From Pseudoflavonifractor sp. An184 (lineage in GTDB: Bacteria; Bacillota; Clostridia; Oscillospirales; Oscillospiraceae): a stretch of 43,418 bases of DNA. The position numbers and the translations under genes are program-made. Position 1 is the stretch's first letter. Every line of letters begins with the position of its first letter. This document shows, piece after piece, positions 1,626 through 17,647 of this stretch. The DNA lies in the NCBI RefSeq assembly GCF_002160305.1, contig NZ_NFKI01000028.1, positions 1 to 43,418 on the forward strand, in the 5' to 3' direction. The notes below the pieces were generated by a model that searched no databases, was not told the DNA's origin, and was given only the letters and a program-made list of their open reading frames with translations.

Positions 1626-1675
1626 GGTTTTCTCTCCGTTCCTTAACCTGTATCCTTGGCATGGGTATAGTCCCG

Positions 1676-2035
1676 TCAAGTCATTTCATACAGCAGGGCA
1701 GCGTCGCCCTGTACCAGTTCCAGATGGGAGCGCAGCGTTTCAAGCCCGCTTTGCACCGCCTCGGTGGGCAGATCCCAGTCTGGGGCAATTTCAGCGGCCA
1801 ATTCCGGGAGGTCCTGCTCCCGCAGAGCTGCCAGCACATTAGACGCCAGCTCTCCCTCCAGCAAAGCGCAATCCAGGGTGTCCTCCGTCTGGGGAGCAGG
1901 AAAACGGACATCCAGATCCAGCTCGCTCTCACACCAGTCCCAGATGGCCATATAGACCGCGCCGGAGCAGTCGCCGTTGGACAGTTCCTGCCGCTGGCCG
2001 TCTTTGAGAAGATAAAAGGATGCGATCTGTGACAT
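1676..2035 (-). CDS. Uncharacterised acidic protein, 119 residues
   Basis: ATG at 2033-2035 with GGGAGGAA upstream. The sequence is acidic and alternates short strands and helices (MSQIASFYLLKDGQ, then ALLEGELASNVLAALREQDLP). No cysteine cluster, membrane segment or signal peptide. No family recognised. It lies 18 bases after the SF0329-like gene and about 50 bases before the next start, so it should be on the same transcript. Confidence 0.65.
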   Translation of the reverse strand: MSQIASFYLLKDGQRQELSNGDCSGAVYMAIWDWCESELDLDVRFPAPQTEDTLDCALLEGELASNVLAALREQDLPELAAEIAPDWDLPTEAVQSGLETLRSHLELVQGDAALLYEMT

Positions 2036-2053
2036 AGTGGTTCCTCCCGCATG

Positions 2054-2566
2054 TTATTCTTTTTCCATCAGCCCTTCTGCCTGCATCCGAATCACATAGA
2101 AGGCCCGCACCCAGTCCAACTCCTGTTCCATGGATTCCTCCAAAGCCAGCAGGCGGCGCTTTCCCAGCCTGCGGTCCAGGAGGGCAAAGATGCGGACAAG
2201 AGGATTCTCGCTGGCAAGGCTTTTCTCAATGCTCTGGTTGTCAAATTCATGAAATGCCTCATAGAAAAAACCGTTGTCAAAACAGCCATCGTTCAGTGTT
2301 CCTTCATGGGCCAGCCGGAAAGGGGCCTTTGGATCGTCCTGGCCGATGCCCTCCCGCCGCAGGGCCTGATATCTGTTCCAGTAGTTCTGTTCATAGGCAT
2401 AGTAGTTACTTCGCAGCACCTCCACGCCGTCCAGTCGAATGGCCGCCCGGCCTGTTTGGTCATGGCTTTCCCAGTAGCTGGTGGCAAAATACTGGATATG
2501 GCCCCGGAGCGCCGGACACAGGTAGTCATTCTCCAGCTTGTTCCGGATTCCGCTCCAGGTTGACAT
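2054..2566 (-). CDS. SF0329-like family protein
   Basis: The opening pattern, W-S-x-I-R-x-K-L-E followed by L-C-P-A-L-R-G-H-I-Q-Y and then a GR-A-x-I-x-L-D-G segment, resembles the small SF0329 family of unknown function, as far as I can tell from memory. At 170 residues it is of ordinary length. No catalytic motif is apparent; the C-terminal half is helical and basic (LLDRRLGKRRLLALEE). The start ATG at 2564-2566 follows GGAGACAAGTACCT. It lies 74 bases downstream of the DUF2262-like gene, one of the wider gaps in the array. Family call is moderate, function unknown. Confidence 0.6.
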   Translation of the reverse strand: MSTWSGIRNKLENDYLCPALRGHIQYFATSYWESHDQTGRAAIRLDGVEVLRSNYYAYEQNYWNRYQALRREGIGQDDPKAPFRLAHEGTLNDGCFDNGFFYEAFHEFDNQSIEKSLASENPLVRIFALLDRRLGKRRLLALEESMEQELDWVRAFYVIRMQAEGLMEKE

Positions 2567-2640
2567 AGGTACTTGTCTCCTTTCTGATGCCGCTGCGGGC
2601 GTTGCCCCTTCCGCAGAATTTGCCTTTTGTGTTTGAAGTG

Positions 2641-3129
2641 TTATCCGTTGAATCCGCCGACTTCAATTTTATATTTGCAGTCGACCTCGATACAAACTAA
2701 ATGCCCCATGAAATAGTCGGGTTCCGCATCCAAATCGATGTAAAAGCCAGTTTCACTTCCATTTACAAATACCGTTACATTGTTTACAAACAGTGCTTTT
2801 ACAAACTCATCTTCTGAAATCTTCCCATCCGCTTCCAGCGTTCCATCTTCGATCATTTCATTCACGATGTCTATACAGTCATCGTTCTCATCCAAAAATG
2901 CTCGGATAATGGTATCTTTATGGTCATTGACCCAATTTACCCTTTTCAAAACGATATCGCCCATATTTCCCTCTGTGCTCTGAAACTCAAGGAGAATTTT
3001 AGTCTTTCTATCCCATACGGTCCATTCTCCAACATGAAAGCCGAGTTTGCGATCAAATACAAATTCCGTATTTCCCAAAATGATTTTATCCGGCATTTCG
3101 CCCCTTTTCTTCTTTGAAAATAGTCCCAT
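2641..3129 (-). CDS. DUF2262-like immunity-type protein
   Basis: A 162-residue protein starting MGLFSKKKRGEM at the ATG at 3127-3129, preceded by GGAGG seven bases away. The pattern ILGNTEFVFDRKLGFHVGEW, then a long helix, then a strand-rich end with a conserved G-H-x-V-x-x-E-V resembles the DUF2262 fold seen in two larger genes of this array (26993-27832 and 31016-31858): a short beta segment, helices, then ISEDEFVKAL...YFMGHLVCIEV. It lacks their extra N-terminal region. The gene is clearly AT-richer than its relatives here, so it was probably acquired separately. Biochemical activity unknown. Confidence 0.6.
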   Translation of the reverse strand: MGLFSKKKRGEMPDKIILGNTEFVFDRKLGFHVGEWTVWDRKTKILLEFQSTEGNMGDIVLKRVNWVNDHKDTIIRAFLDENDDCIDIVNEMIEDGTLEADGKISEDEFVKALFVNNVTVFVNGSETGFYIDLDAEPDYFMGHLVCIEVDCKYKIEVGGFNG

Positions 3130-3200
3130 ATATACCTCCATAACTTTACATGTATTACTGTGCCCGCCAGTCTCGATAGCGTTTTTCATGGGCGATGTTT

Positions 3201-3950
3201 TCAGTGCTCATTGAGATACCTCGCCAATTTCTTCTCCAGCAGTTCTGTCATATCATTGCAGAGGCGTTTTACCTTGTCCTGCTCATGGGCGTAGTACCAG
3301 ATGGTTTCCTCTCTGGGGCGGAGCAGGAGCTGGTCGCCGTCCGCTTCTTTCCAGAACTCGCCCAGCACACAATACCGCTCTCCATGGATGGTCAGATCAA
3401 ACATCCCGGAAAGGGTAAGGATCACGCCTGTGGATACATTGATACCTGCGGTCAGCAGGAAGAACTCCCGCACCTGGGACGGGAGTGTGAAGTCCAGCGC
3501 ACTTTCTTGATTCCCAATCTGCTCCTCCGTGGCGGCAGGCTTGATCTCATCAGAGGTGTCCAGCACCTTTGCCAGCGCCTTGGAGAACTTGGGGTATCGG
3601 CCAAACAGCTCCGGGTGGCTGGCCTTGAATTCCTTTTGCTTTTCCCGCTGCACTCGCTCCTGCTCCTTGCAGAAAGCGTCCAGTTCGGCCAGATACCGCT
3701 CCTGGTAGAGATTGCTGGCTTCAAATGCTAAGCCGCTCTTTTCCAGAATGGCGATGGCTCCCTTTTGGCTGCCAAACACCGGGACCCACTGAAAACCGTG
3801 TCGGCAGGGCTTCAGTTTCAGAAATTCACCCCGACTCAGCAGGGCTTCCAACTCCGTCTCATGTTCGTCCCACCAGTTCTGCCAGGTTTCAGGTGTTTCC
3901 CGTCCCTCAGCCAAGTCCAGGAGTTTTTCTGTCAATGATTCTTTGCTCAT
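3201..3950 (-). CDS. SMI1/KNR4 (SUKH) family protein
   Basis: A 249-residue protein. The N-terminal half is helical and charged; the C-terminal part (about residues 135-249) shows the SUKH layout: an EEQIGNQESALDFTLPSQVREF helix pair leading to FFLLTAGINV, a strand with GERYCVLGEF, then LLLRPREETIWYYAHEQD and a final helix. SUKH proteins are the best-known immunity superfamily against nuclease and deaminase toxins; they bind the toxin directly. The ribosome site is weak compared with its neighbours (GGAG lies about 17 bases upstream), so a slightly different start is possible. Confidence 0.75.
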   Translation of the reverse strand: MSKESLTEKLLDLAEGRETPETWQNWWDEHETELEALLSRGEFLKLKPCRHGFQWVPVFGSQKGAIAILEKSGLAFEASNLYQERYLAELDAFCKEQERVQREKQKEFKASHPELFGRYPKFSKALAKVLDTSDEIKPAATEEQIGNQESALDFTLPSQVREFFLLTAGINVSTGVILTLSGMFDLTIHGERYCVLGEFWKEADGDQLLLRPREETIWYYAHEQDKVKRLCNDMTELLEKKLARYLNEH

Positions 3951-3986
3951 GGGTGTCCACGCTCTTTCTCCGCCATCACTTCCACA

Positions 3987-4376
3987 TTACTCGGTAGCAC
4001 AAAGCTCATTCATTTTTGGAATCAGTATTTTATCCATCCATTGACAAACAACCTCAAAGGCATTGTAAATCTTTTCTTCATTTCCTATATCAAGATATAT
4101 TTCATTGTCTCTTAAACTGTAAAACAGCGGTTGTGTGTTGATGTCTGGTTTGGCATAACCATAAGGGTCGTATGGACGGGTGTTGATTATATAGCAAACC
4201 TCTATGCTTATGCTATCCTTTGTGTTCCCGCCGAATGAGGAAAACGCAATCATATAGGTGAAATTTTTACTGTGCCTCGTAAGTGTTTTGTCGGATTTTT
4301 TATACTTGAATCCTAAATGCCCGTACTTTCCTTGCAACTTGGTTCCAAGCATTTGCATTGCTTCGCTAAAGTTCAT
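3987..4376 (-). CDS. Small immunity-type protein, DUF4304-like fold suspected
   Basis: 129 residues, start ATG at 4374-4376 after GGAGGGGGCACA. The start MNFSEAMQMLGTKLQG followed by GFKYKKSDKTLTRHSKNFTYMIAF and a beta segment resembles the layout of DUF4304 proteins (helix, G-F-K-x-K, then basic strand), but similarity is too weak for a firm name. A related layout occurs at 20242-20601. The gene is notably AT-rich compared with both neighbours. No signal or membrane segment. Confidence 0.55.
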   Translation of the reverse strand: MNFSEAMQMLGTKLQGKYGHLGFKYKKSDKTLTRHSKNFTYMIAFSSFGGNTKDSISIEVCYIINTRPYDPYGYAKPDINTQPLFYSLRDNEIYLDIGNEEKIYNAFEVVCQWMDKILIPKMNELCATE

Positions 4377-4429
4377 TGTGCCCCCTCCATTTTCTCATCG
4401 TAAAAATAAATATAGTTCATTTCTCCGTT

Positions 4430-5542
4430 TCAGAGGGCGCAGGAATAGATGCTCATGGCCCCGTAATCGGTGTGCAGGACAAGTCCGCTCTTGGTAAAGG
4501 CAAAATTCACCTGCCGCACCACAAAGGGGTCGTCAATGGTGGCCAGCAGCTGGCCGCTTCCGGTATCCCACAGCTCTATGGGGGAGCTGCCACGATCCTG
4601 CTGAACGGCCATCAGGCTGCCCCTTGTCCTCACCGTACAGGTATCCGAAAAACTCAGCCCCTGCCGGACAGAAAACGGGAAAGGATTGTCCATTTCCTCT
4701 CCGTTCTGGGTCAAATAGAACTTGCCGCCCACAGAGAAGCACTGGTCATCTGGAGAGAAGAAGGGATGCCAGCCCTCATTGGGAATCACTACTTTTTGGG
4801 CGGACTTCAAATCGACCAGCACATACTCACCCTCGGTGACGCGGTAGGCCGCTTTGCTCTGCCGGGGAGAAAGCATCCCGAAGCAGTAATAGGCAAAATT
4901 CGGGTCTTTTGACTTCTTGCATTTTACCGTTTCCCGCCACACCTCTGTGTTGCTGCCAAAGTCAAAGACAACAATCTCCTCGCCCGTGTACCACAGGGCC
5001 AGGTCGCCGCTGACATCCAGCATGGTCTTCATGCTGTTTTTCTTGTTGGCAAAGGGTGTGATTTCATGGGAGCGGAGTGAGAACTGCTGGAGAAGATAGC
5101 TGTTGTTCAGAAGAAGGGTGTCATTGGGGCAGAGGACCTGCTCATAGGTCATCCGCTTGGCGCCCAGAGAGACCGTTTCAAGGATCGCCCCGCTGCCATC
5201 GAAGTGATAGAGGGTTTCGTCCTCAAAATCTCCGACCACCCTCGTCAGGAAGAAGTCATCCCGTGTGAGGGCGGTAGCCAGGGGCATAAAACCGTTACTG
5301 TCCTTACCGACAAACCGATGGCACCGCGCCTGCCCAACAGCGGCATCCGGATTCTGATAGACAAATCCTTTCCGCATTTGGCTCATCATGGCGCTGGCAG
5401 TCTTGCTCTTGACCTGGAAGGCGGAGTCGCACAGGATCTCCTTGACCTTCCCGCCATTCAAGCAGGTTCGGATGGTATGTCCGTCAATTTCAATCCGCCA
5501 CTGCTTATTTGTGGCGGGGTTGAGGAAGGTTTTTTCAATCAT
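4430..5542 (-). CDS. WGR-like domain plus beta-propeller-type repeats
   Basis: 370 residues. Residues 1-70 look like a WGR domain: ATNKQWRIEIDG, a second strand pair with G-G-K-x-K-E, then a long helix QVKSKTASAMMSQMRKGF ending in Y-Q-N-P. WGR modules bind nucleic acid or proteins. The remainder consists of repeated four-strand units with the feel of WD40/propeller blades (ETLYHFDGSGAILETVSL; ALWYTGEEIVVFDFGSN; PIELWDTGSGQLLATID). It overlaps the preceding gene by four bases (ATGA), so the two should be translationally coupled. Likely a binding protein; enzymatic function not indicated. Confidence 0.65.
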   Translation of the reverse strand: MIEKTFLNPATNKQWRIEIDGHTIRTCLNGGKVKEILCDSAFQVKSKTASAMMSQMRKGFVYQNPDAAVGQARCHRFVGKDSNGFMPLATALTRDDFFLTRVVGDFEDETLYHFDGSGAILETVSLGAKRMTYEQVLCPNDTLLLNNSYLLQQFSLRSHEITPFANKKNSMKTMLDVSGDLALWYTGEEIVVFDFGSNTEVWRETVKCKKSKDPNFAYYCFGMLSPRQSKAAYRVTEGEYVLVDLKSAQKVVIPNEGWHPFFSPDDQCFSVGGKFYLTQNGEEMDNPFPFSVRQGLSFSDTCTVRTRGSLMAVQQDRGSSPIELWDTGSGQLLATIDDPFVVRQVNFAFTKSGLVLHTDYGAMSIYSCAL

Positions 5543-5817
5543 GGTTTTGGCCGTTCCTCCTTTCGGATCAGGATGCTTTTTCCCTCGGAGTTGATGCTAT
5601 ACAGGTCATCCAGATGGATGTGGAATCCATCCCCGCGAAGAGTTTCTGCCATACCCAAAGCGGCTTTCGCCAATAGAAGCAGCCCCGCCCGGTTTCCCGT
5701 TAGCTCCAATTCATTTCCATCAGCATGAGTGGTAAAGGAGAGGTGGGCTTCCGGCTCTACCGGAAGGATGGGCAGTTGTTCATCATTCAGTTGAATGGTC
5801 AGTGTTTTGGGTTTCAT
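5539..5817 (-). CDS. Small Imm32-like protein
   Basis: 92 residues from the ATG at 5815-5817 (MKPKTLTIQLND); an upstream TTG is rejected. The core pattern, strand ELELTGN, helix RAGLLLLAKAALGMAE, then DGFHIHLDDL and a final strand SILIRKEE, matches small immunity proteins I associate with Imm32 and relatives, in which a His-x-His segment follows the helix. The assignment rests on this pattern only. It ends in ATGA overlap with the propeller gene. The ribosome site (AGGTGG) lies about 11 bases away. Confidence 0.55.
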   Translation of the reverse strand: MKPKTLTIQLNDEQLPILPVEPEAHLSFTTHADGNELELTGNRAGLLLLAKAALGMAETLRGDGFHIHLDDLYSINSEGKSILIRKEERPKP

Positions 5818-5845
5818 CGCTTGTATCCCACCTTTTGAAAACTCC

Positions 5846-6724
<879 letters not shown>

Positions 6725-9700
6725 TCAATCCCACCAGAAGTACCAGACGGTGGACTGCCGCAGCACATCGGCCAGTGCGCCAACGGTGGCGTCCTCCGGC
6801 TCCTGATCCACAATGTCTGGACAGAAACCGTACTGTTCCAATGCCACTTCCATGGCCTTCTCCTTGGGGATGGGGGCCGGGAGCAGGAATTCTAATTCAT
6901 CGTGGCTCATGGCGGCAGGCACCGCGCCGTACTGCTCGAACCAGTATTTGGCCGCTGCCATCAGCTCCGGTGTGTCGGGGCAGTCATTCCAGTTTCCGAA
7001 GGGCAGGTAGGCGAAGATCTCCCAGGGATTCTTCACCGGGATTTTGGCCAGAATAAGGGGATAGGTCATATCGTTGTCAGAATTCCAGTAGCAGGAGAAA
7101 CGGTCATTGTCATAGCCGCCCTCCATCTCGCCCAGGACTTCCTCATCCCAGTCCATATCGTCATCCTCAGCTTCTTCCTTGCGTTGGCCGATCAATTCAT
7201 CCATAACCGCCGTTCCGTCTTTGATGGGGGCGGAGAGCATCTTCTTCCGGTACTCCGTTACGGTTTTGAGGTCAAATTCGTAAATGTCCGCATCATTCTT
7301 CAGGTCGGCGTTCATCACCAGACACTCCAACAGCGTTTCATCATCTGCCTTGATGAGCACCGGCACAAAGCCTTCTTTGACACTTTCCCGTTTGGCATAG
7401 CTGTATGCCGACATGATGGGATCATCGTCCTTCATGGAGGGGAAATAGGTGCATTCACAGTCCAGATACTCCATCAACGCCTCAGCCAGTTCGGAGGGTT
7501 CCAGCGTGTCCTCGTCGAAGTCCTGTCCCTGCCAGTTGGTGAAGCGTTCCTCGATCACCTTTGCCATGGCCTGGTAGTAGTCCTCGTCAAAGGGGATAAA
7601 CAGGTAGGCTTCATCTTGGAACTCATTGGAGTGATACCGTTCCGGGCCGAAGAAGCGGAGGGCGTTGTCATCAACATCGGCAGGATAGTAGGGGCTGTCG
7701 CCCTCTCCATAGTAATAGCCTGCAAAAGCACGGCCTTGCTGATTGAATAGCACAGAGAACAAGCAGCCGTCCAACTCATTCTGGATGAATGCCCGCAGGT
7801 CCACACTGGCAGGGTCGGCTTTGACCTGTTTGACCACTTCGCCGTATTCTTTCAGAAATTCCTCGCCCATCAAATCATGCTCCATGCACCAACGCAAGTA
7901 GATGGCCATATGGTTGTAGGCATTGATGGGGTCAATGGGCAGACCCTTCTCCTCAATGCTCTCGATATGATAGGAGGCATCGTCCATCTCACCGTCAAAA
8001 TCATCATTGGAAAGGGTGCCACGAGTGATAGCATCCTGACGATCAGGCTCCACCACAAAGCTGATGCCGTTCATTTTGTCCAGCAGGGCGTCCGCGTCAT
8101 GGGCCAGCTTGTATTCCAATTCATCCCGGTAGAGAGGGATCACCTGATAGAAGTTGACCTCCTCGCCACTCGGCAGGATGCAGACCTCGCTTCCATCTTC
8201 GGTGTCCTGGGGACCGGTCAGCATGGCGGCGCACAGCTTTGTGCCCTTTGCAAAGTCCTCCTCATTGTCCATGGTATGGCCGAAGCCCAGCCAGGTATCG
8301 CTGGCAATGGGCAGGCGGGCCAGGGTTTTCAGCAGGCGGATAGGCCAGTACCACCGCTCATTCTTCAAATCCTCACGCTTCAGCTTCCAGTTCCCCGGCA
8401 GCGCGATGGCCAGCTCCGCCCGCTCCAGCTTATATTCCGCCAGTTCCTTCGGGACATTCATCCGGTGGGCGCCCATACCCATGGTGACCAGGGTGTAGTA
8501 GTCCCGCTCCTCGGAGGGCGGCACCACGCAGATGTCCACATGGATGTCCGGGGAAGAAAGCTCGTGGAACACATTCTCGAACTTGCCGAAATACTGCTGG
8601 ATGTGCCCCTCGATGGCTTCCATCTCCTCCTCGGTGTAGACCTCGGGAACACCGGATTCCTTATCCTCGGGCACTTCACCGTCCGGGTCATCATCATCGT
8701 CAGGGTCACCGTCCGATGACGCCCAGGAGATTTTCAGGGTCATCTGCTCCTCCGGCAGTCCGACGCCAGGGCTGCGGGTGATGGTGTGCTTATCATCTGC
8801 ATCAAAACCGATGGTTTCCCCATCGTGCAGTTCCACATCATTCTCCAGCACATAGGACACAAGGCTGGCCAAAAAGTCCCGCAGATCGCTCGGCTTGGCA
8901 TCGGTGCCCAGCACCTCCATCTCTTCCTTACCAAACGAATCCAGGCCATAGGTGTAGCCGTTCATGCCATTCTCATTCCGCCAGAGGCCGAACCAGATCC
9001 AGTTGAAGATGGGCAGTTCGTCATCCCGCATCATGTCGGCAAAGCCCTCATAGAACCGGGGCTCAAACACCACGCCGCTGGTGTAGATACCGGTGGCATA
9101 TTCCTGGCGGCAGCAGGCGGCAACCACCTTTGTGAACAGCTTGCCCTTTTCCAGAAGATCCTCCTCTTTACCCAGCACTGCTACCATCAGGTGGGCGCGG
9201 TGCTCTTTGGCTACCTTGACCGCATCCTCCCACATATAGTTGTTTTCCGCATTGCCCTCGGCCTCGCCGCCGGGGATAGGATAGGAGGTCAAGCTGACAG
9301 CGGCCAGCATATCGCCCACCTCAAACACCAGGGCGTCGTCGTCCTTCTCCTCGCTGGCGTCGTATTCATCCACAGCGATGTCCCACTTTTCCTTCATGTC
9401 CCGGATGAACTGCTCTTTATCCCATTCTCCTTTGGACAGCAGCACAAAGCCGGTGAAGACGCCTGTGTGGTCACTCTCGTCCTCGACTTCTGCTCCAGCT
9501 CGCTTTGCAATCTCCTCCTGACACGCTTGAATCACCGCCGGGGCGTCCTCGTCCTCCGGGTCCAGCTCCGCCCACCGCTGGGCGTAGGGGATGGCCTTTT
9601 CCTCCTGATGGTAGAGATACTGGTATCCATAAGCCATCCGCATATTCCACTGGGACTTCTCCTGGCCTTCCTCCCGAACCAATTCCAGTAATTCAATGGC

Positions 9701-12319
9701 TCGGAGCAGGGCTTTTTCTGCCTTGTAGTAGGGTGGTTCCTCTTGATGGTCGCCCAAAACTGCGTAGTTTTCCAGCGCCCGGGCCATGGCATAGACGATG
9801 CGGTAGTTCCGCCAATCCTCCGGGATGGCGTTCAATGCCTGGATACAGCGGGTGTACTCGTCCTCATCATTCCACTGCTCCAGCTGCTGGAAGAATTCCT
9901 CTTCGTTCTGCGGGGTGTAAGGGATATAGTCCACGCCCGTCAGCGTCTCGTCCAGCTCGGGGATCTGATCCTCATCGTCCGGTTCCTCCTCGGGCGGCGT
10001 TTTCAGGTTCACAGTGCCTGCTTCTCGACGGAAGGTGTGGAAGCTGGCCCAGGGGATCTCACTGTCCTCGAAGAACTCCTTTGCCATCTGGAGCGCCGTC
10101 TGGATGTCCCAGGCAATGAAATCCACATAGCCGCAGAAAAGGCCGGTGGCTCCACCGGTGAGGGTGAGGATCTCCGGTCCGTCGCCGGTGGTAAACACTT
10201 CTTCCAGTTTGTCCCGGAAGTCGAAAATCTTCTCCGATCCTTCCTCCTCCCGGAGGGTATCCAGGGGATAGCAGAAGAAGCCCGCCACTGCGCCGTCGGC
10301 ATGGAGATCGTCCATGAAGTCATTGTCGGCATTCAGATAGCCGTTGATGAGCGGTACACAGCAAGTGGAGCCGACCATCACATCCAGCCGCCAATCGGCG
10401 TCGGGATCTTCATTGGGTTTCATTTCGTAGCCAAGATAGCGCTCCAGATAGGCTTCCGGATCAGTGGAGAGTTCCAGCCCCCGCTCCTTCAGAGCGTCGG
10501 GAAGCTGGGACATAAGCATGGACGGCTCCGCCTTGGGTTCCTCCAGCACATCAAAACTGTCTATGTATCTCATGTGGGGAATCTCGCCCAGCACTTGGTC
10601 GGTGAGGGTGGTGAGCATCCACCAGACTCGGCCTTCCGCCTCCCGGAGCATGGGCAGCAGTTTTTCACAGTAGGCGGAGATAGCGAAGCTGTTTTCGCCC
10701 TGTTCCTCCAACCAGATCTGCACATCATCTCCAGAGATGTCCCAGCCATCGTCGGTGCGAAGGCCGATGTTTCGGATGGGCTGACGGCCCACAAGGATGT
10801 TCCAGTGCTCCAGCACCTCCCTGGAGGCGTGCTTCTGGAAGTAGACCAGCTCAAACAGCTTGACCTTGTCACCCTCCGGGGTGAGGATCAGCTCGTACTT
10901 CTCGCCGTTGAAGCCCATCTCGAAAGAGATCTCATCAAAGACCTGGTTCAAAGCCCCTTCCATTTGGGCCACGATTTCGGCGCCGCGGGTGTGGTCTTTG
11001 TCGTCGTCCATCATTTGGCGCAGTGACCCTTCCATTTCGGCAAAGGTCTCCCACCAGTTCTCTGTCCGCTCCCGGAAGCACTGCGAGAACTGAGGCAGAG
11101 AAATGCCCTTCTTGCACCAGTCGATCAGCTCCATGGTGTCCTCGTCACCAGGGCGGGCCTCCAATGCCTTTTCAAAGTATCGCAGGGCACGGTCCTCCTG
11201 ATCCAGATAAAAGTAAGAGTAACCCATGCGGAAGTTCCAGCAGTGGTCTCCCTCGAAGTATTTCTCATGGGGTTTCAAGAGAGCGATGGCCTTTTTGAGC
11301 AACGCACGGTTGGAAGGTGCCCCCAGATTGTTGTAAGCCCGGGCCAGCTCGCTGTCCATCTCCGGGGTGCGCTCCTGGGCAGGAATAGCCTCCAACGCGT
11401 CGATGATCTTCTGGTACTCGCTGTTTTCATTCCACTTCTGGCACTGCTGTAAAATATCCATATCCGGGTCCTCCTCGTCCTCATCCGGTTTCCAGTCTTT
11501 GATCTGCTGGAACACGCCATTCTCATCCCGCTCAAAGGCGCAGGGGGCGGGGGTGTTTAGCAGAGGGATGATGTCGGGATCGTCGTTGCAGATGGTGTTG
11601 AGGCCGTAGATTCCGGCGTTATTAGGGTCGTCCATGTACTCGTCACTCTCATCACCAGCGGTAAAGCGCCAGCCGCTGTCCCAGTCGCCGTCCGGCTTCT
11701 CACGGTAGCAGTAGCCAACCTTGCAGCCCTCCACCGTGATGCGGTTGGTGGCGATGCAGCCGGTGGCTTCCTCCCAGTCGGGGAGCAGATTCTTCATGTC
11801 CTCTGCCTTCACATGGTAGTCCCGGTTGCGGCCAGCGGCCTCGTACAGCTCCTTACGCAGCGCCTCCACATCCCGAGCCATCTCCTGGATCTCCTCGTCG
11901 TCCATCATCTCACTGAGGTCATATTCCAGCGGGTTCTGGGCAAAATCCGCCAGGGTCTTGTTCATGGCGTCATGCTCCTCTGGCGTAGCGGTGATGCGGA
12001 TGCGGCGGGAGGGGGTGTTGTACTCGTCCAGATCCTGGAGGTTCACACTGCCGCTGACGCTGCACTCCAGCAGGATGGCGGCCAGGTCGGTGACCACATC
12101 AATGGCGAAGTGGAAGTCCATCTCCACGCCATCGGAGTGTGTAAACTCCAGATACTCCACGGTTTGGTGGAAGTCCCAGTTCTGCTTGTCCAGCCCGATC
12201 TTGGCGAAGATCTCGCTGAGGGGGATCTCCTCCTTCTTCTGATCTACCAAAAAGGCCACAAGGTTCAGGCTGTCATCCGAGCCTCCGATAAAGTTGCCCC
12301 AGTATTTTTTGATATACAT
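6725..12319 (-). CDS. Giant composite polyimmunity protein (DUF2185-TPR-TPR-DUF4261-SUFU-DUF7832-like-DUF4253)
   Basis: 1864 residues, uninterrupted. Start ATG at 12317-12319 (MYIKKYWGNF) lies six bases after AGGAGG; nearer-upstream ATG and GTG codons abut or overlap that site. Approximate order: 1-185 unrecognised alpha/beta region; 186-272 DUF2185/Imm33 type (GCIATNRITV, VGYCYRE, DSGWRF, GDESDEY); 286-405 TPR block; 410-775 unrecognised; 805-938 second TPR block resembling the first; 950-1200 DUF4261 (YGLDSFGKEEMEVLG, DGETIGF); 1200-1225 acidic linker; 1226-1430 suppressor-of-fused (VFHELSSPDIHVDI, GMGAHRMNVP, YWPIRLLKTLARLP, TWLGFGHT); 1455-1600 DUF7832-like (NHMAIYLRWCMEHDLM); 1640-1864 DUF4253, ending WYFWWD. 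These modules normally occur as separate immunity proteins. No signal peptide, membrane segment or catalytic toxin domain is visible. It should act in the cytosol as a multi-toxin neutraliser (inference). Confidence 0.9.
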   Translation of the reverse strand: MYIKKYWGNFIGGSDDSLNLVAFLVDQKKEEIPLSEIFAKIGLDKQNWDFHQTVEYLEFTHSDGVEMDFHFAIDVVTDLAAILLECSVSGSVNLQDLDEYNTPSRRIRITATPEEHDAMNKTLADFAQNPLEYDLSEMMDDEEIQEMARDVEALRKELYEAAGRNRDYHVKAEDMKNLLPDWEEATGCIATNRITVEGCKVGYCYREKPDGDWDSGWRFTAGDESDEYMDDPNNAGIYGLNTICNDDPDIIPLLNTPAPCAFERDENGVFQQIKDWKPDEDEEDPDMDILQQCQKWNENSEYQKIIDALEAIPAQERTPEMDSELARAYNNLGAPSNRALLKKAIALLKPHEKYFEGDHCWNFRMGYSYFYLDQEDRALRYFEKALEARPGDEDTMELIDWCKKGISLPQFSQCFRERTENWWETFAEMEGSLRQMMDDDKDHTRGAEIVAQMEGALNQVFDEISFEMGFNGEKYELILTPEGDKVKLFELVYFQKHASREVLEHWNILVGRQPIRNIGLRTDDGWDISGDDVQIWLEEQGENSFAISAYCEKLLPMLREAEGRVWWMLTTLTDQVLGEIPHMRYIDSFDVLEEPKAEPSMLMSQLPDALKERGLELSTDPEAYLERYLGYEMKPNEDPDADWRLDVMVGSTCCVPLINGYLNADNDFMDDLHADGAVAGFFCYPLDTLREEEGSEKIFDFRDKLEEVFTTGDGPEILTLTGGATGLFCGYVDFIAWDIQTALQMAKEFFEDSEIPWASFHTFRREAGTVNLKTPPEEEPDDEDQIPELDETLTGVDYIPYTPQNEEEFFQQLEQWNDEDEYTRCIQALNAIPEDWRNYRIVYAMARALENYAVLGDHQEEPPYYKAEKALLRAIELLELVREEGQEKSQWNMRMAYGYQYLYHQEEKAIPYAQRWAELDPEDEDAPAVIQACQEEIAKRAGAEVEDESDHTGVFTGFVLLSKGEWDKEQFIRDMKEKWDIAVDEYDASEEKDDDALVFEVGDMLAAVSLTSYPIPGGEAEGNAENNYMWEDAVKVAKEHRAHLMVAVLGKEEDLLEKGKLFTKVVAACCRQEYATGIYTSGVVFEPRFYEGFADMMRDDELPIFNWIWFGLWRNENGMNGYTYGLDSFGKEEMEVLGTDAKPSDLRDFLASLVSYVLENDVELHDGETIGFDADDKHTITRSPGVGLPEEQMTLKISWASSDGDPDDDDDPDGEVPEDKESGVPEVYTEEEMEAIEGHIQQYFGKFENVFHELSSPDIHVDICVVPPSEERDYYTLVTMGMGAHRMNVPKELAEYKLERAELAIALPGNWKLKREDLKNERWYWPIRLLKTLARLPIASDTWLGFGHTMDNEEDFAKGTKLCAAMLTGPQDTEDGSEVCILPSGEEVNFYQVIPLYRDELEYKLAHDADALLDKMNGISFVVEPDRQDAITRGTLSNDDFDGEMDDASYHIESIEEKGLPIDPINAYNHMAIYLRWCMEHDLMGEEFLKEYGEVVKQVKADPASVDLRAFIQNELDGCLFSVLFNQQGRAFAGYYYGEGDSPYYPADVDDNALRFFGPERYHSNEFQDEAYLFIPFDEDYYQAMAKVIEERFTNWQGQDFDEDTLEPSELAEALMEYLDCECTYFPSMKDDDPIMSAYSYAKRESVKEGFVPVLIKADDETLLECLVMNADLKNDADIYEFDLKTVTEYRKKMLSAPIKDGTAVMDELIGQRKEEAEDDDMDWDEEVLGEMEGGYDNDRFSCYWNSDNDMTYPLILAKIPVKNPWEIFAYLPFGNWNDCPDTPELMAAAKYWFEQYGAVPAAMSHDELEFLLPAPIPKEKAMEVALEQYGFCPDIVDQEPEDATVGALADVLRQSTVWYFWWD

Positions 12320-12330
12320 GACCATCCTCC

Positions 12331-13179
12331 TCACTTGCGCGTCAAAGTTCCGTTATCAATAAGGGCAGCCTCCCGGATGCGCCGGAGGGATTCCGGCTCC
12401 AGCAAAAACTCCCGCAGGTTCGGGTCCTCAAAGAAGGACATGGGACGCACCTGCGTCGGCCCGGCAACCGCCCACAGCCGCGATGTTGCCAACCGCTCCG
12501 CTGTCTGGAGCGCCTTCTCCTGCTCGCCCAGATAGAGATAGCGGGCGATTGCGTCCCGATAGGAGGAGTCAGCCATGGGCACGCCTTGAATCTCCTCAAA
12601 GAGATCTACGGCATCCCTGGCGGTTCCGAACATACAGCAGTGGTTATAGAGCTTCCGCCTGGCATCGGGATCGTCTGGCGAGAGCTTTTTATTCTGTTCC
12701 ACCAGCTTTGCCCAGAGCTGCTCCTTCGTTTGAGGTTCCTCCGGTTCATGGTAGGGGTAGTTCTTGTCGTTGTCCGCAAAGGGCATAACGCCCCGCTTGA
12801 GGTAGTCCATCAGAATGTCACAGAACCGATCCCGCTGGGGGAGGCCGTTCTCAGCCCGGATGCGAGCCTGTTCTTTCATCAGCGCCTCAATCAGTTCCTG
12901 CTCCCGGTGGAGCTGGATGGCGGCCACCGTCATGGCAATCATGTGTTCATCGCTCACATTGCTGTAATACCACTCCTCCAGCCAGGGAAGGATGGTCAGA
13001 TCCAAAGCCAGCGCCTTTTCATAGTCCAGGTTGAAATAGGCGACCTCAGCCTTGACCGCTGCTACCTGATGGGGGTATTTATCGGAAAAGGATTCCAGGG
13101 TATCCAAGGCCCCTTCTTTGCCATCCATGATCTCATAGCAGACCATGCGGGCTTTCTTGGGAAGTTTCACGACATCCAT
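12331..13179 (-). CDS. Helical-repeat (TPR-like) protein
   Basis: 282 residues from the ATG at 13177-13179 (MDVVKLPKKARM), preceded by GGAGGCGTCAAC. The frame stays open for 93 more codons upstream, but that part is rich in Ser, Pro and Arg, lacks a ribosome site, and is left out. The chain is nearly all helical with TPR-like pairs (AAVKAEVAYFNLDYEKALAL; RDAIARYLYLGEQEKALQ). It sits directly before the giant polyimmunity gene with an 11-base gap. Probably a protein-binding scaffold; no specific family recognised. Confidence 0.7.
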   Translation of the reverse strand: MDVVKLPKKARMVCYEIMDGKEGALDTLESFSDKYPHQVAAVKAEVAYFNLDYEKALALDLTILPWLEEWYYSNVSDEHMIAMTVAAIQLHREQELIEALMKEQARIRAENGLPQRDRFCDILMDYLKRGVMPFADNDKNYPYHEPEEPQTKEQLWAKLVEQNKKLSPDDPDARRKLYNHCCMFGTARDAVDLFEEIQGVPMADSSYRDAIARYLYLGEQEKALQTAERLATSRLWAVAGPTQVRPMSFFEDPNLREFLLEPESLRRIREAALIDNGTLTRK

Positions 13180-13405
13180 GTTGACGCCTCCTTCAGTCTT
13201 TTTTCTGTAAATAGTAGGTTCCACACCGGCCCCACAGCCGGGTGTCCAGATTTTCCTTTTTGATATCTGCCATCTGCCGAAAGACCGGCTTGATTGCCTA
13301 TCAGCAAAGACAGTCGAGGCTGTCAGCGGCGGCTCATGAAATGTGCAGTTCATCTTGACCGTTGCTGGCTCGGTTGGCTTTGCTATCTCCCCGATAAATG
13401 GGAAG
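13180..13405. other. Intergenic gap inside the array
   Basis: This 226-base stretch is one of the widest gaps in the array. It holds no gene with a ribosome site. One minus-strand frame is open right through it into the TPR-like gene, but its composition (many Ser, Thr, Arg, Pro) is unlike the array proteins. It may be the scar of a lost gene or an insertion. No terminator with a T-run was seen. Confidence 0.4.
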
Positions 13406-13816
13406 TTATCGACCTGTTTTTGATAGTCTGTTCTGCAAGAAGATAACAGCGGCTTCATGCACTTCTTCTCTTAATTCGCCCTGTGTAGGACTTTTTGCAA
13501 TCCTCTGTATATCTGAGAGAATACAATTTATGCTCTCATCGGAAAAAAGAGGTACCAGACAGGTGATAATCCAATACCTCCATATGTCGTCTTTTTCATG
13601 TGGACTTAAAACTCTATGAATTAAAGGGACGAGGGCTGATTGGTGTAAAGCGAGCACCGGCAAAATATCACCAGCAACAGGCCAATTACAGTCCTGTATC
13701 CACTCCAAAAGAGAGGATAATATCGGCTCAATCTCATTGTCAGTAAGGTGTTTTAGCCTCTCTATATTTGAACTATCAAATTTATTTTTTGGCACTAAGT
13801 CGTGAATATCTGTCAT
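13406..13816 (-). CDS. DUF5071 family protein
   Basis: 136 residues starting MTDIHDLVPKNKFD at the ATG at 13814-13816. The sequence follows the DUF5071 pattern: L-V-P-K-x-K-x-D, helix, IEPILSSLLEWIQDCNWPVAGDILPVL (with the characteristic W-x-Q-D-x-N-W-P-V-A), then DDIWRYWIITCLVPL. DUF5071 proteins are small all-helical proteins of unknown activity frequent in immunity loci. The gene is AT-richer than its neighbours. GGAG lies about 14 bases upstream of the start, a weak site for this array. A 226-base gap separates it from the next gene downstream. Confidence 0.75.
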   Translation of the reverse strand: MTDIHDLVPKNKFDSSNIERLKHLTDNEIEPILSSLLEWIQDCNWPVAGDILPVLALHQSALVPLIHRVLSPHEKDDIWRYWIITCLVPLFSDESINCILSDIQRIAKSPTQGELREEVHEAAVIFLQNRLSKTGR

Positions 13817-13877
13817 ATTAGCTCTTAATCTCCATCTCAAATATTATTTTGTCGTTCTCCAAATACTTTTTTCTTTC

Positions 13878-13931
13878 TTAAAGAAGACGGAGCGTGTTGT
13901 TCACCTTGTCTGTACCACACGCGGTACGCAT
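13878..13931 (-). CDS. Possible 17-codon ORF between kptA-like and DUF5071 genes
   Basis: ATG at 13929-13931, eight bases after GGAG (which overlaps the end of the kptA-like gene), followed by MRTACGTDKVNNTLRLL and TAA. The good ribosome site is the only support. The product would be a short basic peptide. It could be a leader, a relic of a longer gene, or chance. Confidence 0.2.
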   Translation of the reverse strand: MRTACGTDKVNNTLRLL

Positions 13932-13936
13932 GGCAT

Positions 13937-14491
13937 TCACTCCTCTAAGCGTTTCAGGTACGGAGCAGGGACCACCTTTGTCAGCCACACTCCATTGGCG
14001 GATAAATAAAAGAGATATCCGTCGCGGTGCATCTGTCCGGCATCCACCAGGTAAATCACAGGCTGGCCGTGCCGCTGGCCTACTTTTTCGGCGGTTTCGG
14101 GATCTGGGGACAGATGGACATACAGGCGGCTTTGGGGAAGCAGTCCCTGGACCTCGATGGAGGCGGCAAACCGCTGGGCTGTTCCGTGGTACAGCGTCTC
14201 CGGTGGTTCAGTCACGGGGAGTTCCACATCCACCTGAATGGAGTGGCCCTGGTTGGCCCGGATTTTTGTCCCGTCCTCGCTGAAGGAATACCGCTGCTTT
14301 TCATCACTCCGCACGATTTCCTCCAGAATGTCCCGGTTGATGGGGTATTTTCTGCTGATACCCGCCAGCAGCGCATTGACATCCGCCCAGCCGTGGGCAT
14401 CCAACTGGATTCCAATGACCTCCGGCTTGTGCCGAAGGATCAAGCTGATATACTTGCTGATCCTTGTAAGATCGGGTGTTGTTTCTCTCAT
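13937..14491 (-). CDS. kptA: RNA 2'-phosphotransferase (KptA/Tpt1 family)
   Basis: 184 residues from the ATG at 14489-14491, after GGAGGGCACC. Tpt1 enzymes use NAD+ to remove a 2'-phosphate from RNA, giving ADP-ribose 1",2"-cyclic phosphate and nicotinamide. The family hallmarks are present in order: ISKYISLILRHKPE (R20, H21), GWADVNALL, RYSFSEDGTKIRANQGHS (R78, H83), LYHGT (H102-T104), RLYVHLS and the C-terminal GVWLT. All the usual catalytic Arg/His residues appear intact, so it should be active. Bacterial homologues have no tRNA-splicing role; placement among immunity genes suggests repair or reversal of toxin damage to RNA, or another NAD+-linked reaction (inference). Confidence 0.93.
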   Translation of the reverse strand: MRETTPDLTRISKYISLILRHKPEVIGIQLDAHGWADVNALLAGISRKYPINRDILEEIVRSDEKQRYSFSEDGTKIRANQGHSIQVDVELPVTEPPETLYHGTAQRFAASIEVQGLLPQSRLYVHLSPDPETAEKVGQRHGQPVIYLVDAGQMHRDGYLFYLSANGVWLTKVVPAPYLKRLEE

Positions 14492-14507
14492 GGTGCCCTC
14501 CGCATTC

Positions 14508-15476
14508 TCAAATTGCCTCCACCCGGATAATAGGCCGGTAGAAGTCATAGTCGCCGTTTAGTTCCTTGTCTTCCTGCACTTCCGGCTTGCAGTGGGGCGA
14601 ACAGGGCAGGAAACCGAGGAAAATTCCAAGTCCGCCGCAGATGCCGCGCCCGCCATCACCGCCGCAGGTGGTAAACTGTTCGGCCTTCACGACCTCCCGC
14701 ATATAGGGGTCATAGGCGATGGACACTCCGAAGAAGTTAGGCTCCTCCATATCGAAGGGCTTGTCCTCATCCTCCGGGCTTTCGAAGTGGTGCAGGTGCA
14801 TGGAGTAGTCCATTCCATCTCCCCAGGGGAACAGGGTGCGGCACCCGCCGCCGCACAGATAGGCCCACTCGTCCGCCGTGGGCAGGGAGAGGCCCTGCTG
14901 TTCCAGCCCGGCAAGAAGCGCATCGTAGTCTGTGCGGTTATAGATACAGATCTGAAAGCCCTTTTCCGTCCGCTCAATGCGGGCTGACTGGTGCATAGTA
15001 AGGCTGTCAAGGTCGCTCCAGGCAAACTCCCGGAACTGCTTCAGCCAGTCAGGATGGGCGGTCAATCTGGGATCGTCCATTGTGACCAGCTCCCAGCACA
15101 GTTCCTCCAACTCCCGGCCCACCAGCATAGGGCCAATAGCTACCTGCCGAACGGGAGCCATGCTTTCCCGGATCATCTCCTCTGGGTCCTGTTCCATCTC
15201 CCATTCCTGGAACAAATAGTCCAGTTCCTCCCGGCTGTCCTGACTGAGCCCTATGGCGAACCGTTCCCAGCCCAGGGTGACGGTATCGCCGGGAACGAAA
15301 ACATACTCCCGGCTATCTTTCTCGAATATGCCGGTGGTACAGTTCTGGCCCCAGCGATCAAAGGTATGTAGACCGAGAAAGGTCATATTATAACGAGCAG
15401 CCAGGCGTTCCATCAGCGCCTGTTTCTCGGTGGTTTCCATTTGATTGAATTGGGTGCGAAATAGTCTTTCGTTCAT
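14508..15476 (-). CDS. Protein with C-terminal SUMF1/FGE-like fold
   Basis: 322 residues, start ATG at 15474-15476 after GGAGGACTTGCT. The N-terminal half (to about 175) is mixed and unassigned. The C-terminal part contains LSLPTADEWAYLCGGGC, LFPWGD, NFFGVSIAYDPYMREVV, TCGGDGGRGICGG and YDFYRPIIRVE. These match the layout of formylglycine-generating enzyme/SUMF1-like domains (LPTEAEWEYA...YPWGD...G..GGS....R). Known members oxidise cysteine in sulfatases or, as inactive versions, bind ligands like C-type lectins. Here the catalytic cysteine pattern is not clearly preserved, so a binding role is more likely. It is followed 16 bases later by the kptA-like gene. Confidence 0.65.
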   Translation of the reverse strand: MNERLFRTQFNQMETTEKQALMERLAARYNMTFLGLHTFDRWGQNCTTGIFEKDSREYVFVPGDTVTLGWERFAIGLSQDSREELDYLFQEWEMEQDPEEMIRESMAPVRQVAIGPMLVGRELEELCWELVTMDDPRLTAHPDWLKQFREFAWSDLDSLTMHQSARIERTEKGFQICIYNRTDYDALLAGLEQQGLSLPTADEWAYLCGGGCRTLFPWGDGMDYSMHLHHFESPEDEDKPFDMEEPNFFGVSIAYDPYMREVVKAEQFTTCGGDGGRGICGGLGIFLGFLPCSPHCKPEVQEDKELNGDYDFYRPIIRVEAI

Positions 15477-15487
15477 AGCAAGTCCTC

Positions 15488-15898
15488 CTACAGCCTATCC
15501 AGATTCTCCTGTAGATCGCCCTGCATCAAGTGTTGGGCAATGGCTTGGTTCAGTGCCTTATGGGGGTGATAGGCTGCCTGCCCTACATCGTGGAGGCACT
15601 CCGCCATCAATACCTCTGGCGAAATGCCTTCCCGTTTGCCATAAAGATGGCCGAAGGCATAGCACACAGACTTTAGAAAGTCAAAAATGTAGTCGTGATT
15701 TCCGCGCATACTGGGCAGATCATTGAATGAGCCCATACCACCGTATGCCCGAAGATGATGGGCAACCTCCCGCCGCTGGTTCCAGTCCTGAATGTCCCGC
15801 TCCAACCAGTCAATCCAGTTCTTGAATTCCGGATGGTCTGCCTGAAGGATTGAGCGCAGACAGATCAGAGCCTCAGTATAAATATCTGTCTGTTTCAT
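15488..15898 (-). CDS. DUF6966-like helical protein
   Basis: 136 residues, ATG at 15896-15898 after GGGAGGAATCTG. The pattern WIDWLERDIQDWNQR followed by HLRAYGGMGSFNDLP is the reason for the DUF6966-like call: in that family a helix is followed by G-G-M-G-S-F-N-D. The rest is helical (VLMAECLHDVGQAAY). Function unknown. It stops 11 bases before the next start. Confidence 0.6.
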   Translation of the reverse strand: MKQTDIYTEALICLRSILQADHPEFKNWIDWLERDIQDWNQRREVAHHLRAYGGMGSFNDLPSMRGNHDYIFDFLKSVCYAFGHLYGKREGISPEVLMAECLHDVGQAAYHPHKALNQAIAQHLMQGDLQENLDRL

Positions 15899-15912
15899 CA
15901 GATTCCTCCCAA

Positions 15913-16599
15913 CTATTTTCCGAAATGCTCCAGATACAAATCCCGCACAGAATAAGGGCCTACAAGGTTCGTTTCCTGTCGGCCATCCCAGGAATACACA
16001 TGAATTTTGCCCTCGTCCCCAATGTACTGTTGTTCCTCAAAGGATGCGGGGAATGGGAAACTTTCTACCATGCTCCAGTTGATCTTGGATTTCAGCTCAT
16101 CAAATTCCTCGCGCTTGAGCCTTTTGAAGTTAAATATCAATGCTGCCCCAATCCCATCGAACAGCAAGTCTGCGTATTCTCTGGGGGTGATGCTTTCGCT
16201 CACATTGGCGGCATCAATATTGACATCCAGAACCTTGTTGCCGCAGTTTGTCCAGATTTTATCGGGAGAGAACCAGGTGGTGCGTTCCTCAGAGTCTGCA
16301 AAGTCCTCACGGGGATACCATCCGTTTGCGCTGTCCGGCTTGACGCCTTCCCGAAGCGTCCCGTTGTACGGGGAAAGCGGATAATATCGGTGCCGCACCA
16401 GATCAAATCGGCCAAAGGCAATTTTCAGCAGATACTTGTGCTTTTCACTACGCATGAGCTTATGGGGCTTCACGATATGTTCTTCGATCAAGCTCCAAAT
16501 GTACTCATCTACACGGATGGATACACGGGGACGGCTGAATAGTGTGATTTTGTTGGTGTCTGTATCCACATTGAGCCAGACACGATTGATTTCAACCAT
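15913..16599 (-). CDS. Uncharacterised 228-residue protein
   Basis: No family recognised. Start set at the second of two nearby ATGs (16597-16599, MVEINRVWLNVDTD): AGGA lies six bases before it, whereas the first ATG directly abuts the site. The protein is alpha/beta with several aromatic and charged motifs (RHRYYPLSPYNG, NGWYPREDF, KIWTNCGNKVLDV) and ends GPYSVRDLYLEHFGK. No signal or membrane segment. The two-base gap to the preceding DUF6881 gene suggests coupled translation. Confidence 0.65.
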   Translation of the reverse strand: MVEINRVWLNVDTDTNKITLFSRPRVSIRVDEYIWSLIEEHIVKPHKLMRSEKHKYLLKIAFGRFDLVRHRYYPLSPYNGTLREGVKPDSANGWYPREDFADSEERTTWFSPDKIWTNCGNKVLDVNIDAANVSESITPREYADLLFDGIGAALIFNFKRLKREEFDELKSKINWSMVESFPFPASFEEQQYIGDEGKIHVYSWDGRQETNLVGPYSVRDLYLEHFGK

Positions 16600-16601
16600 T
16601 G

Positions 16602-16913
16602 TCATTCCTCGCTTTTCAAAAACGATCCGCTATAAAATCGGCTTTCCCAGATGGCCTCAAATTCTGCTTTCTCTATCAAGCAGGCGTGGAACTCCTCGCC
16701 CCAGACATGGGCGTTCAATTCCTCCACGGTGGGGATCGGCGTAATCTCAATGGCACCGTCGTAAAGGTCGGGGATGTCGCGGGTGCAGCCATCCGCAAAG
16801 ATGTCAATGGAGCGGAGGGCCAGCCGCTCATTTTCGGTATCCACTTCATAGAGGATGACCGATGGTTCACCCTCCGGTGCGCCCTCCCAAAAGAGCTTGA
16901 TGTACTCGATCAT
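16602..16913 (-). CDS. DUF6881 family protein
   Basis: 103 residues, ATG at 16911-16913 after GAGGGAAACGGA. It follows the DUF6881 plan closely: MIEYIKLFW, a loop with P-x-V-I-L-Y-E-V-D, RSIDIFADG, a segment with P-I-P-T-V-E-E-L and a final EFHACLIEKAEFEAIW. DUF6881 proteins are compact beta-rich proteins found in immunity clusters; the molecular target is unknown. Confidence 0.75.
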   Translation of the reverse strand: MIEYIKLFWEGAPEGEPSVILYEVDTENERLALRSIDIFADGCTRDIPDLYDGAIEITPIPTVEELNAHVWGEEFHACLIEKAEFEAIWESRFYSGSFLKSEE

Positions 16914-16923
16914 TCCGTTTCCC

Positions 16924-17187
16924 TCATTTGAACCAATGCCACCCCGTCATGGTGCCGGTTACCTCATCTATCTGTACCGCAATATCATAATTGCCGCGAC
17001 AGCCCAGCAAGGCCGCAAGATGATCATTTTCCATAATCAAATCATAAAACTCAACCGCTATACCTTGGAATTCCCCTGGGATCTCCAGCACAGAAAAGGA
17101 ATCCACTGACTGAGCATTTTGGAAAAATTCAATGGCCGTTTTACTGCATTTTACTATAATCCCTGTTTGAGTGGTCAACTCTTTCAT
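16924..17187 (-). CDS. Uncharacterised 87-residue protein
   Basis: Begins MKELTTQTGIIVKCSKTAIEF at the ATG at 17185-17187. This start shares four bases (ATGA) with the stop of the preceding gene, and GAGG lies ten bases upstream. Pattern: beta strand, helix, then EFQGIAVEFYDLIMENDHLAALLG and a final strand ending in GWHWFK. Family not recognised. Confidence 0.6.
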   Translation of the reverse strand: MKELTTQTGIIVKCSKTAIEFFQNAQSVDSFSVLEIPGEFQGIAVEFYDLIMENDHLAALLGCRGNYDIAVQIDEVTGTMTGWHWFK

Positions 17188-17624
17188 GCTTTCGCTGCCT
17201 CGCTCATGTTCAGATACATCCCCATCGTTTTTTCATCGGCACAGGCTACTCGGATCATTTTGGCCAGCATCATCAAATCGTCGATGTATTGGGAATACAC
17301 GCAGAACACATCCTCGTCAGAGTCAAAGTGAAACAGATCCTCACCACTATTGTTTTCCTCAAACTCCCGGATCACGCCCCGGACCAGCCGTTCCCAGTCT
17401 CCGCTGCTGCCGGTCAGTCCCAGCCGGCAGAATTCTTCTGTCCGGAACCCGTCACTGATCTTCAGCAGAAGGGAGATGGCATAGGGGTGGTGGGGAATGA
17501 GAAAGAATGGCGCGATCTGCTCCGGCTTCACCCAGATTTTGAAGGGCGGACGCGGATCGGGTATCCAGGGCAGCATCTCCCACTGGTCGTCCGGTCTGTT
17601 TCCGTATTGGGAAAAGTCTTTCAT
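17184..17624 (-). CDS. Imm51-like immunity protein
   Basis: 146 residues from the ATG at 17622-17624 (MKDFSQYGNRPDDQW), five bases after GAGGG. An upstream ATG overlaps the preceding stop and lacks a ribosome site. The C-terminal half carries the feature I associate with Imm51: G-S-S-G-D-W-E-R-L, then DLFHFDSDEDVFCVYS and a helix DDLMMLAKMI. In Imm51 the equivalent F-D-S-E-x-x-M-F-x-A-Y-S motif marks the family. Function is presumed toxin neutralisation by binding. Confidence 0.6.
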   Translation of the reverse strand: MKDFSQYGNRPDDQWEMLPWIPDPRPPFKIWVKPEQIAPFFLIPHHPYAISLLLKISDGFRTEEFCRLGLTGSSGDWERLVRGVIREFEENNSGEDLFHFDSDEDVFCVYSQYIDDLMMLAKMIRVACADEKTMGMYLNMSEAAKA

Positions 17625-17647
17625 GTAATCCCTCGCTTCCCGGCACA

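Follow-up and report, generated by a model that had tools for sequence, protein, structure and literature searches.

Can one bacterial polypeptide combine antitoxins against several unrelated toxins, and if so, how are its parts assembled and passed on? This question is raised by a gene of Pseudoflavonifractor sp. An184, which lies at positions 6725..12319 on the minus strand of the window, i.e. of the 43,418 nucleotides analysed here (contig NZ_NFKI01000028.1, positions 1 to 43,418). A preliminary description, made from the letters of the DNA, had proposed a fusion of at least six immunity modules, namely DUF2185, two TPR blocks, DUF4261, SUFU, a DUF7832-like part and DUF4253. According to our analysis, the product is likely to be an orphan polyimmunity protein, the modules of which are gained and lost by recombination and which is carried on mobile arrays of immunity genes that all lie on one strand.

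Reading frame and conservation of the fusion gene

On the plus strand, the frame at 6725-12319 is interrupted by stops. The minus strand contains an open frame of 1869 codons, which runs from a GTG at 12334 to 6725. As an ATG at 12319 lies behind the motif GAGGAGG, the likely product comprises 1864 residues, which is exactly the length given in the preliminary description. Residue numbers of domains refer to the 1869-residue version starting with GTG.

A scan of species genomes identified 73 loci with relatives, whose best segments are 65-90% identical; in 45 of these loci, the match extends from residue 1-6 to residue 1869. The order of modules in the copies was read with home-made profiles of eleven modules. 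It is maintained in 35 distinct copies, the one in the window included; some of these have an extra domain, and one (locus L017) has a shortened Imm33. Nine intact copies of 2024-2232 residues (L023, L033, L035, L038, L039, L043, L045, L046, L053) occur in the chromosomes of seven complete-genome records, and the number of uninterrupted copies with 1720-2232 residues is 43. For the ratio of nonsynonymous to synonymous substitution rates (dN/dS) and for the breakpoint counts given below, two loci holding runs of N and all open-ended open reading frames (ORFs) were omitted. The median pairwise dN/dS value is 0.16 overall and about 0.2 or below in each module, i.e. the gene is under purifying selection; positive selection at the level of domains was looked for and not seen. 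Two loci belong to odd taxa and may be due to contamination; these are the metagenome-assembled genomes (MAGs) of an archaeon (L020, which is among the 35 copies) and of a member of the Spirochaetes (L066). Because of the ordered copies, the intact chromosomal copies and the dN/dS value, the fusion is neither a chance frame nor a set of joined genes; a sequencing error, which the preliminary description had named as a possible cause, is thus ruled out.

Modules of the chain

Along the chain, the order is Imm68-Imm33-TPR1-X1-X2-TPR2-DUF4261-SUFU-DUF7832-Y-DUF4253. A search with hidden Markov models, as proposed in the preliminary description, gave Pfam matches above the family cut-offs for Imm68, Imm33, DUF4261, SUFU, DUF7832 and DUF4253; it thereby confirmed the five families proposed before and added Imm68. 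This domain (11846..12316, residues 7-163; PF15583, E = 8.3e-42) occupies the region 1-185, which had been regarded as unrecognised, and a stand-alone relative of 159 residues is found at L074. Imm33, formerly DUF2185 (11501..11758, residues 193-278; PF09951, E = 3.7e-36), is the sole profiled module in proteins of about 360 residues at L006, L102 and L103.

The two TPR blocks are present, if weakly marked: the best TPR model scores 19.5 bits versus a cut-off of 27, the repeat at 368-397 is below cut-off, and block 2 (9506..9898, residues 813-943) was recognised solely by its 33% identity to block 1 (E = 5e-18). Block 1 (11111..11467, residues 290-408) directly follows an acidic stretch (270-294), which is the starting point of variant proteins. 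Between the blocks are X1 (10499..11107, residues 410-612) and X2 (9986..10498, residues 613-783). As had been noted before, this region (410-785, about 375 residues) matches no Pfam family. X1-X2 alone constitutes proteins of 381-386 residues at L095-L097, and an AlphaFold2 model of residues 405-800 has a confident fold with a mean predicted local distance difference test (pLDDT) value of 87.8. X1-X2 is a real family that lacks a Pfam entry, and judging from the model it is possibly a new fold.

A linker (9467..9511, residues 942-956) leads from TPR2 to the DUF4261 module (8690..9469, residues 956-1215), the Pfam part of which comprises residues 1127-1202 (PF14080, E = 1.6e-21). SUFU (8036..8548, residues 1263-1433; PF05076, E = 1.5e-47) and DUF7832 (7631..7987, residues 1450-1568; PF25191, E = 2.3e-34) follow. 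The C-terminal module consists of an N-terminal half named Y (7100..7612, residues 1575-1745) and the DUF4253 domain proper (6728..7051, residues 1762-1869; PF14062, E = 5.2e-32). Y-DUF4253 forms a stand-alone protein of about 250 residues at L098 and L100, and DUF4253 was recognised in the former.

Gain and loss of modules

The linker after TPR2 is the site of an insert of about 200 residues in other copies, which accounts for 22 junctions. The only insert scanned, that of L044, is a SUKH domain (SUKH_6, E = 7.5e-25), and the five inserts compared are 86-96% alike. In other copies, a DUF4259 domain (E = 6e-6) is added at the N-terminus. SUFU is missing from L036, L037, L040, L041 and L048, and TPR2-DUF4261 is missing from L060, L062 and L063; L047 has lost TPR2 alone, and L017 most of Imm33. 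In the case of L061, a relative (72% identity) of an entire neighbouring gene of the window, which encodes 322 residues (14508..15476, minus strand), is joined in frame ahead of TPR1. The same family, again with 72% identity, is combined with DUF4241 in a 1072-residue frame at L118 (3418-6633), whose first 500 or so residues match no recognised family; DUF4241 is a separate gene in the array of the window. Judging from this frame, other array genes undergo fusion too.

Altogether, 116 breakpoints were deduced from 68 ORFs. Three of them fall within Pfam domains, which make up 40% of the chain, and two within wider module cores, which make up 79%; the latter count is partly circular, because the core edges of TPR, X and DUF4261 were set after viewing the alignments. 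Breakpoints are not independent, as the copies are related; when distinct bins of 10 residues are counted, 3 of 19 lie inside, with Pfam domains and wide cores alike. Thus, modules are added or lost whole, between domains, and this gain and loss of single modules argues for a chain of separable beads. Five stretches of 25 residues are strongly acidic (at least 44% acidic residues) and start near 270, 782, 985, 1213 and 1720. Those near 270, 782 and 1213 match junctions used by variants, those near 985 and 1720 do not, and no acidic stretch marks the junctions near 942-956 and 1450.

Stand-alone relatives were observed for most modules, DUF7832 being the exception. In addition, a second architecture of about 1480 residues (TPR1-X1-X2-TPR-SUFU-DUF7832-Y-DUF4253) occurs in many loci and, in the genome studied here, on contig C77. 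Congeners possess modules as separate genes, namely DUF4261, TPR-X1-X2 (about 505 residues) or X1-X2 (about 381 residues), and TPR-SUFU-Imm33 (458 residues); these genes are close together and near genes for a fumarase, an ABC transporter and a Crp-like protein. In the separate-gene clusters of congeners (L104-L115), TPR-X1-X2 is adjoined by a family of about 426 residues (MSIGL...), the scanned member of which has neither a Pfam nor an NCBIfam match.

Mobility and horizontal transfer

Long stretches were compared for 25 of the 73 loci, and 45 pairs were listed. Hungatella hathewayi (Lachnospirales, Clostridia) and Holdemania filiformis (Erysipelotrichia) share 21.5 kb at 96.3% identity; their fusion genes are 93.5% identical, their rpoB genes 68.8%. 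Records of Enterocloster and Emergencia share 25.5 kb at 99.99% identity, with values of 100.0% for the fusion gene and 69.3% for rpoB. The reverse pattern is seen when the genome studied here is compared with its congener CCNA10 (fusion gene 82.5%, rpoB 89.2%). In all cases, identities refer to the aligning parts, with rpoB as the yardstick; the set includes no rpoB value for F. prausnitzii. Related arrays have crossed classes by horizontal transfer.

At seven loci (L040, L041, L045, L054, L064, L134, L138), a tyrosine recombinase of about 470 residues (Phage_integrase) follows the fusion gene at a distance of 7-11 kb in the downstream direction; at L064, the fusion gene has the architecture of about 1480 residues. 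Over the part compared (392 residues in three cases), these recombinases are 99.8-100% identical, and their surroundings are about 99% identical in four genomes. Homology with Hungatella, which has only the 3' part of a tRNA-Arg(CCU) gene, ends within this gene. L045, L064 and L134 have an intact tRNA-Arg(CCU) and are alike until about 100 bp beyond it, which is why the array may carry its own copy of the tRNA; the edge fits either this arrangement or a tRNA gene whose 3' end served as the integration site. On the other side, Hungatella, GAM79 and CCNA10 show piecewise homology 38-40 kb further upstream, and exact 14-mers revealed no far attachment site in the 60 kb upstream that were searched in each of three genomes. 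Serine recombinases were considered as well; among the matches listed, they are numerous in the 12 genomes searched and are not consistently near the arrays where positions were compared.

Contig C77 of the same genome harbours a second, paralogous fusion protein of 1491 residues (L116, 1658-13149), which is followed by a MobP3 relaxase (388.5 bits versus a cut-off of 150) and two tandem tyrosine recombinases scoring below the NCBIfam subfamily cut-offs. This combination of relaxase and integrase with cargo is not visible in the window, which ends at the contig edge. By analogy with the related arrays, the array of the window would be borne by an integrase as well.

The surrounding array

The fusion gene is part of an array of 43 genes (107..35853), all on the minus strand. 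Coding sequence accounts for 98% of the array, and the gaps have a median of 6 bp; the start codons are in part uncertain. Its other members encode 87-493 residues, genes overlap at 19 of the 42 junctions, and the GC content is 54% over 1-36000. Besides the fusion, families named for immunity or SUKH are found in a SUKH gene (3201-3950), an Imm32 gene (5539-5853), an Imm51 gene (17184-17648) and an Imm-NTF2 gene (22356-23315). None of these five is directly adjacent to another; the remaining genes encode ankyrin, KptA and NADAR proteins, DUFs and members of other families, as well as proteins without assignment. For the 55 of the 73 loci that span at least 22 kb, recurrence was scored at 60% identity and 70% coverage; there, 41 of the 43 genes reappear in shifting combinations and two do not. 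In all 641 placements (17 of them being the fusion gene itself) the direction is that of the fusion gene. No shared intergenic motif was found, as each 10-mer is confined to one or two of the 21 gaps of at least 9 bp, nor was any long repeat recurring between the array genes.

Several further observations concern the array and its flank. In many loci, the DNA of the fusion gene is less conserved than that of neighbouring array genes (e.g. 90% versus 94-95% at L007); faster change or repeated recombination might be the cause. Among the immunity genes are those of a KptA/Tpt1 RNA 2'-phosphotransferase (13937-14548, minus strand) and of a NADAR protein (18094-18963, minus strand), the latter also matching the PADLOC candidate model PDC-M42C; both might be enzymes that undo toxin modifications. 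Two neighbouring DUF6138 genes (31869-33251 and 33248-34723, minus strand) resemble each other at the DNA level (about 70% over 300 bases). Outside the array, a 43%-GC segment encodes on the plus strand a 1261-residue protein with an nSTAND3-type NTPase domain (37038-40823), and a DUF3990 gene and its partner (42190-43087, plus strand) match the PADLOC candidate defence models PDC-M10A and PDC-M10B.

Comparison with known systems

Zhang et al. 2012 (PMC3482391) introduced the name polyimmunity proteins for chains of up to 10 domains in Firmicutes, with Imm33, SUFU, Imm66-69 and TPR as typical partners. Because that work defined such proteins and listed these partners, the fusion protein is a member of the predicted class, and the preliminary description was right in regarding it as a multi-domain protein of immunity-type modules; such a protein is not unprecedented. 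In agreement with the published account, several unrelated immunity domains are combined in one polypeptide (Imm33, Imm68, SUFU, SUKH and TPR being shared partners), operons are usually free of toxins, and large forms occur in Firmicutes; here, Imm68, Imm33, SUFU and three DUF modules share one frame. The fusion protein differs by possessing X1-X2, by having close copies that have gained or lost modules, and by the integrase near tRNA-Arg in related arrays. Polyimmunity loci are described in the same source as co-oriented, closely packed, heterogeneous, strain-variable and at times located beside recombinases of the XerC/D type. With at least four tandem co-oriented genes of different families and small gaps, the 43-gene array is an extended heterogeneous locus of this kind. 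In contrast to the loci covered there, it contains a seven-module fusion, only 5 of its 43 genes are named for immunity or SUKH, and, with all 43 genes counted, it is larger than the published example, which has 19 immunity proteins.

A second comparison concerns the acquired interbacterial defence (AID) and recombinase-associated AID (rAID) arrays of Bacteroidales. According to two reports (PMC12247911, PMC10470768), common features are a one-strand array of orphan immunity genes in which no cognate effector is recognised, a tyrosine recombinase (here in relatives) and spread among gut bacteria. However, the host belongs to the Bacillota and not to the Bacteroidales, and genes are fused into giant proteins. 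Moreover, rAID arrays have conserved intergenic motifs and, by definition, a GC content of less than 41% (PMC12247911), whereas the array studied here has overlapping junctions, no shared motif and the higher GC content given above. As it differs in both the motifs and the GC content, we do not class it as rAID. Among the matches listed in a literature search, no title or start of an abstract deals with polyimmunity arrays that are mobile in gut Bacillota. The polyimmunity class is known, and X1-X2, the turnover of modules among close copies and the mobility of related arrays in gut Bacillota go beyond its description.

Proposed function and alternative explanations

We propose the following mechanism. 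The chain of about 210 kDa, which is probably cytoplasmic, would consist of about seven modules (Imm68; Imm33; TPR1-X1-X2; TPR2-DUF4261; SUFU; DUF7832; Y-DUF4253), and those other than X1-X2 presumably fold independently as well. Each module may bind, and thereby block, its own family of toxins among those that adjacent bacteria inject, and the fusion would guarantee that all modules are produced jointly. Recombination with neighbouring immunity genes would plug modules in, or remove them, at the linkers. The fusion gene would be cargo of the large one-strand arrays and, since an integrase is present in related arrays, whose ends lie at tRNA-Arg or close to it, the repertoire probably travels between gut bacteria.

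Several points weigh against this interpretation. Toxin binding is predicted from family names and from Zhang et al. 2012 (PMC3482391). DUF4261, DUF7832 and DUF4253 have no immunity label in Pfam, and in the literature searched, DUF4253 and the term "immunity protein" never appear together in one paper. Structure prediction, which the preliminary description had suggested, succeeded for X1-X2, and the model of residues 960-1869 is of low confidence (pLDDT 48). Just 5 of the 43 array genes belong to an immunity- or SUKH-named Pfam family, most of the others being DUFs or unassigned. The window contains neither a recognised recombinase family nor a tRNA gene, and its downstream array end is the contig end. 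Copies at L022, L027, L029, L034, L037 and L059 are split or truncated, L034 in a complete chromosome, so that some hosts can do without the gene. Finally, the fumarase and ABC-transporter neighbours of the separate-gene versions would also suit a housekeeping role.

Alternatively, the modules might be sensors or adaptors of a TPR-based scaffold for a stress or defence signalling complex, which is found on mobile arrays owing to some other benefit such as phage defence. The TPR blocks recur and stand ahead of several modules, three modules are DUFs, and the window also contains the nSTAND3 NTPase and the gene pair matching candidate defence models. However, modules come and go singly while the rest is retained, unlike the parts of a machine that are obligate; Imm68, Imm33, SUFU and SUKH have been predicted to be families of immunity proteins, and at E 0.001 no PADLOC model matches the fusion protein. 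We therefore consider such a scaffold unlikely. A guard against toxins encoded elsewhere in the own genome would correspond to the classical role of immunity proteins, as outlined in PMC3482391. Yet no toxin family was recognised among the 43 array genes, many of which are DUFs or unassigned and could hide a new toxin, and the 98.8%-complete genome contains none of the families LXG, RHS_repeat and WXG100, to which the search was confined, other delivery systems and toxin families not having been searched. For this reason, the proteins look orphan, and self-immunity is very improbable. Also very improbable is that the long chain merely stores modules for recombination, or that cleavage at linkers releases separate immunity proteins: three of the five acidic stretches (near 270, 782 and 1213) do lie at variant junctions and several copies are split or truncated, but the dN/dS value of about 0.16 over the whole length and the 43 long uninterrupted copies imply selection on the long frame.

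The orphan polyimmunity protein with exchangeable modules thus remains the reading we prefer. In a tentative and more far-reaching version, which we regard as possible but doubtful, the protein would be an evolvable chassis for immunity, in which the TPR blocks and the linkers would serve as neutral joints that take up whole immunity genes in frame from the mobile array, and a tRNA-Arg island of gut Bacillota would build and spread multivalent antitoxins, as a counterpart of the acquired-defence arrays of Bacteroidales. X1-X2 would then be a new antitoxin fold.

If the modules act as predicted, the horizontal acquisition of one gene would make a gut bacterium resistant to several unrelated antibacterial toxins together. 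Close copies that differ by a single module (SUKH, SUFU or TPR2-DUF4261) form a natural matched set with which toxins could be assigned to modules, and X1-X2, DUF4261, DUF7832 and DUF4253 can be put to the test as candidate antitoxins. The arrays would carry the idea of acquired defence from Bacteroidales to the Bacillota of the gut.
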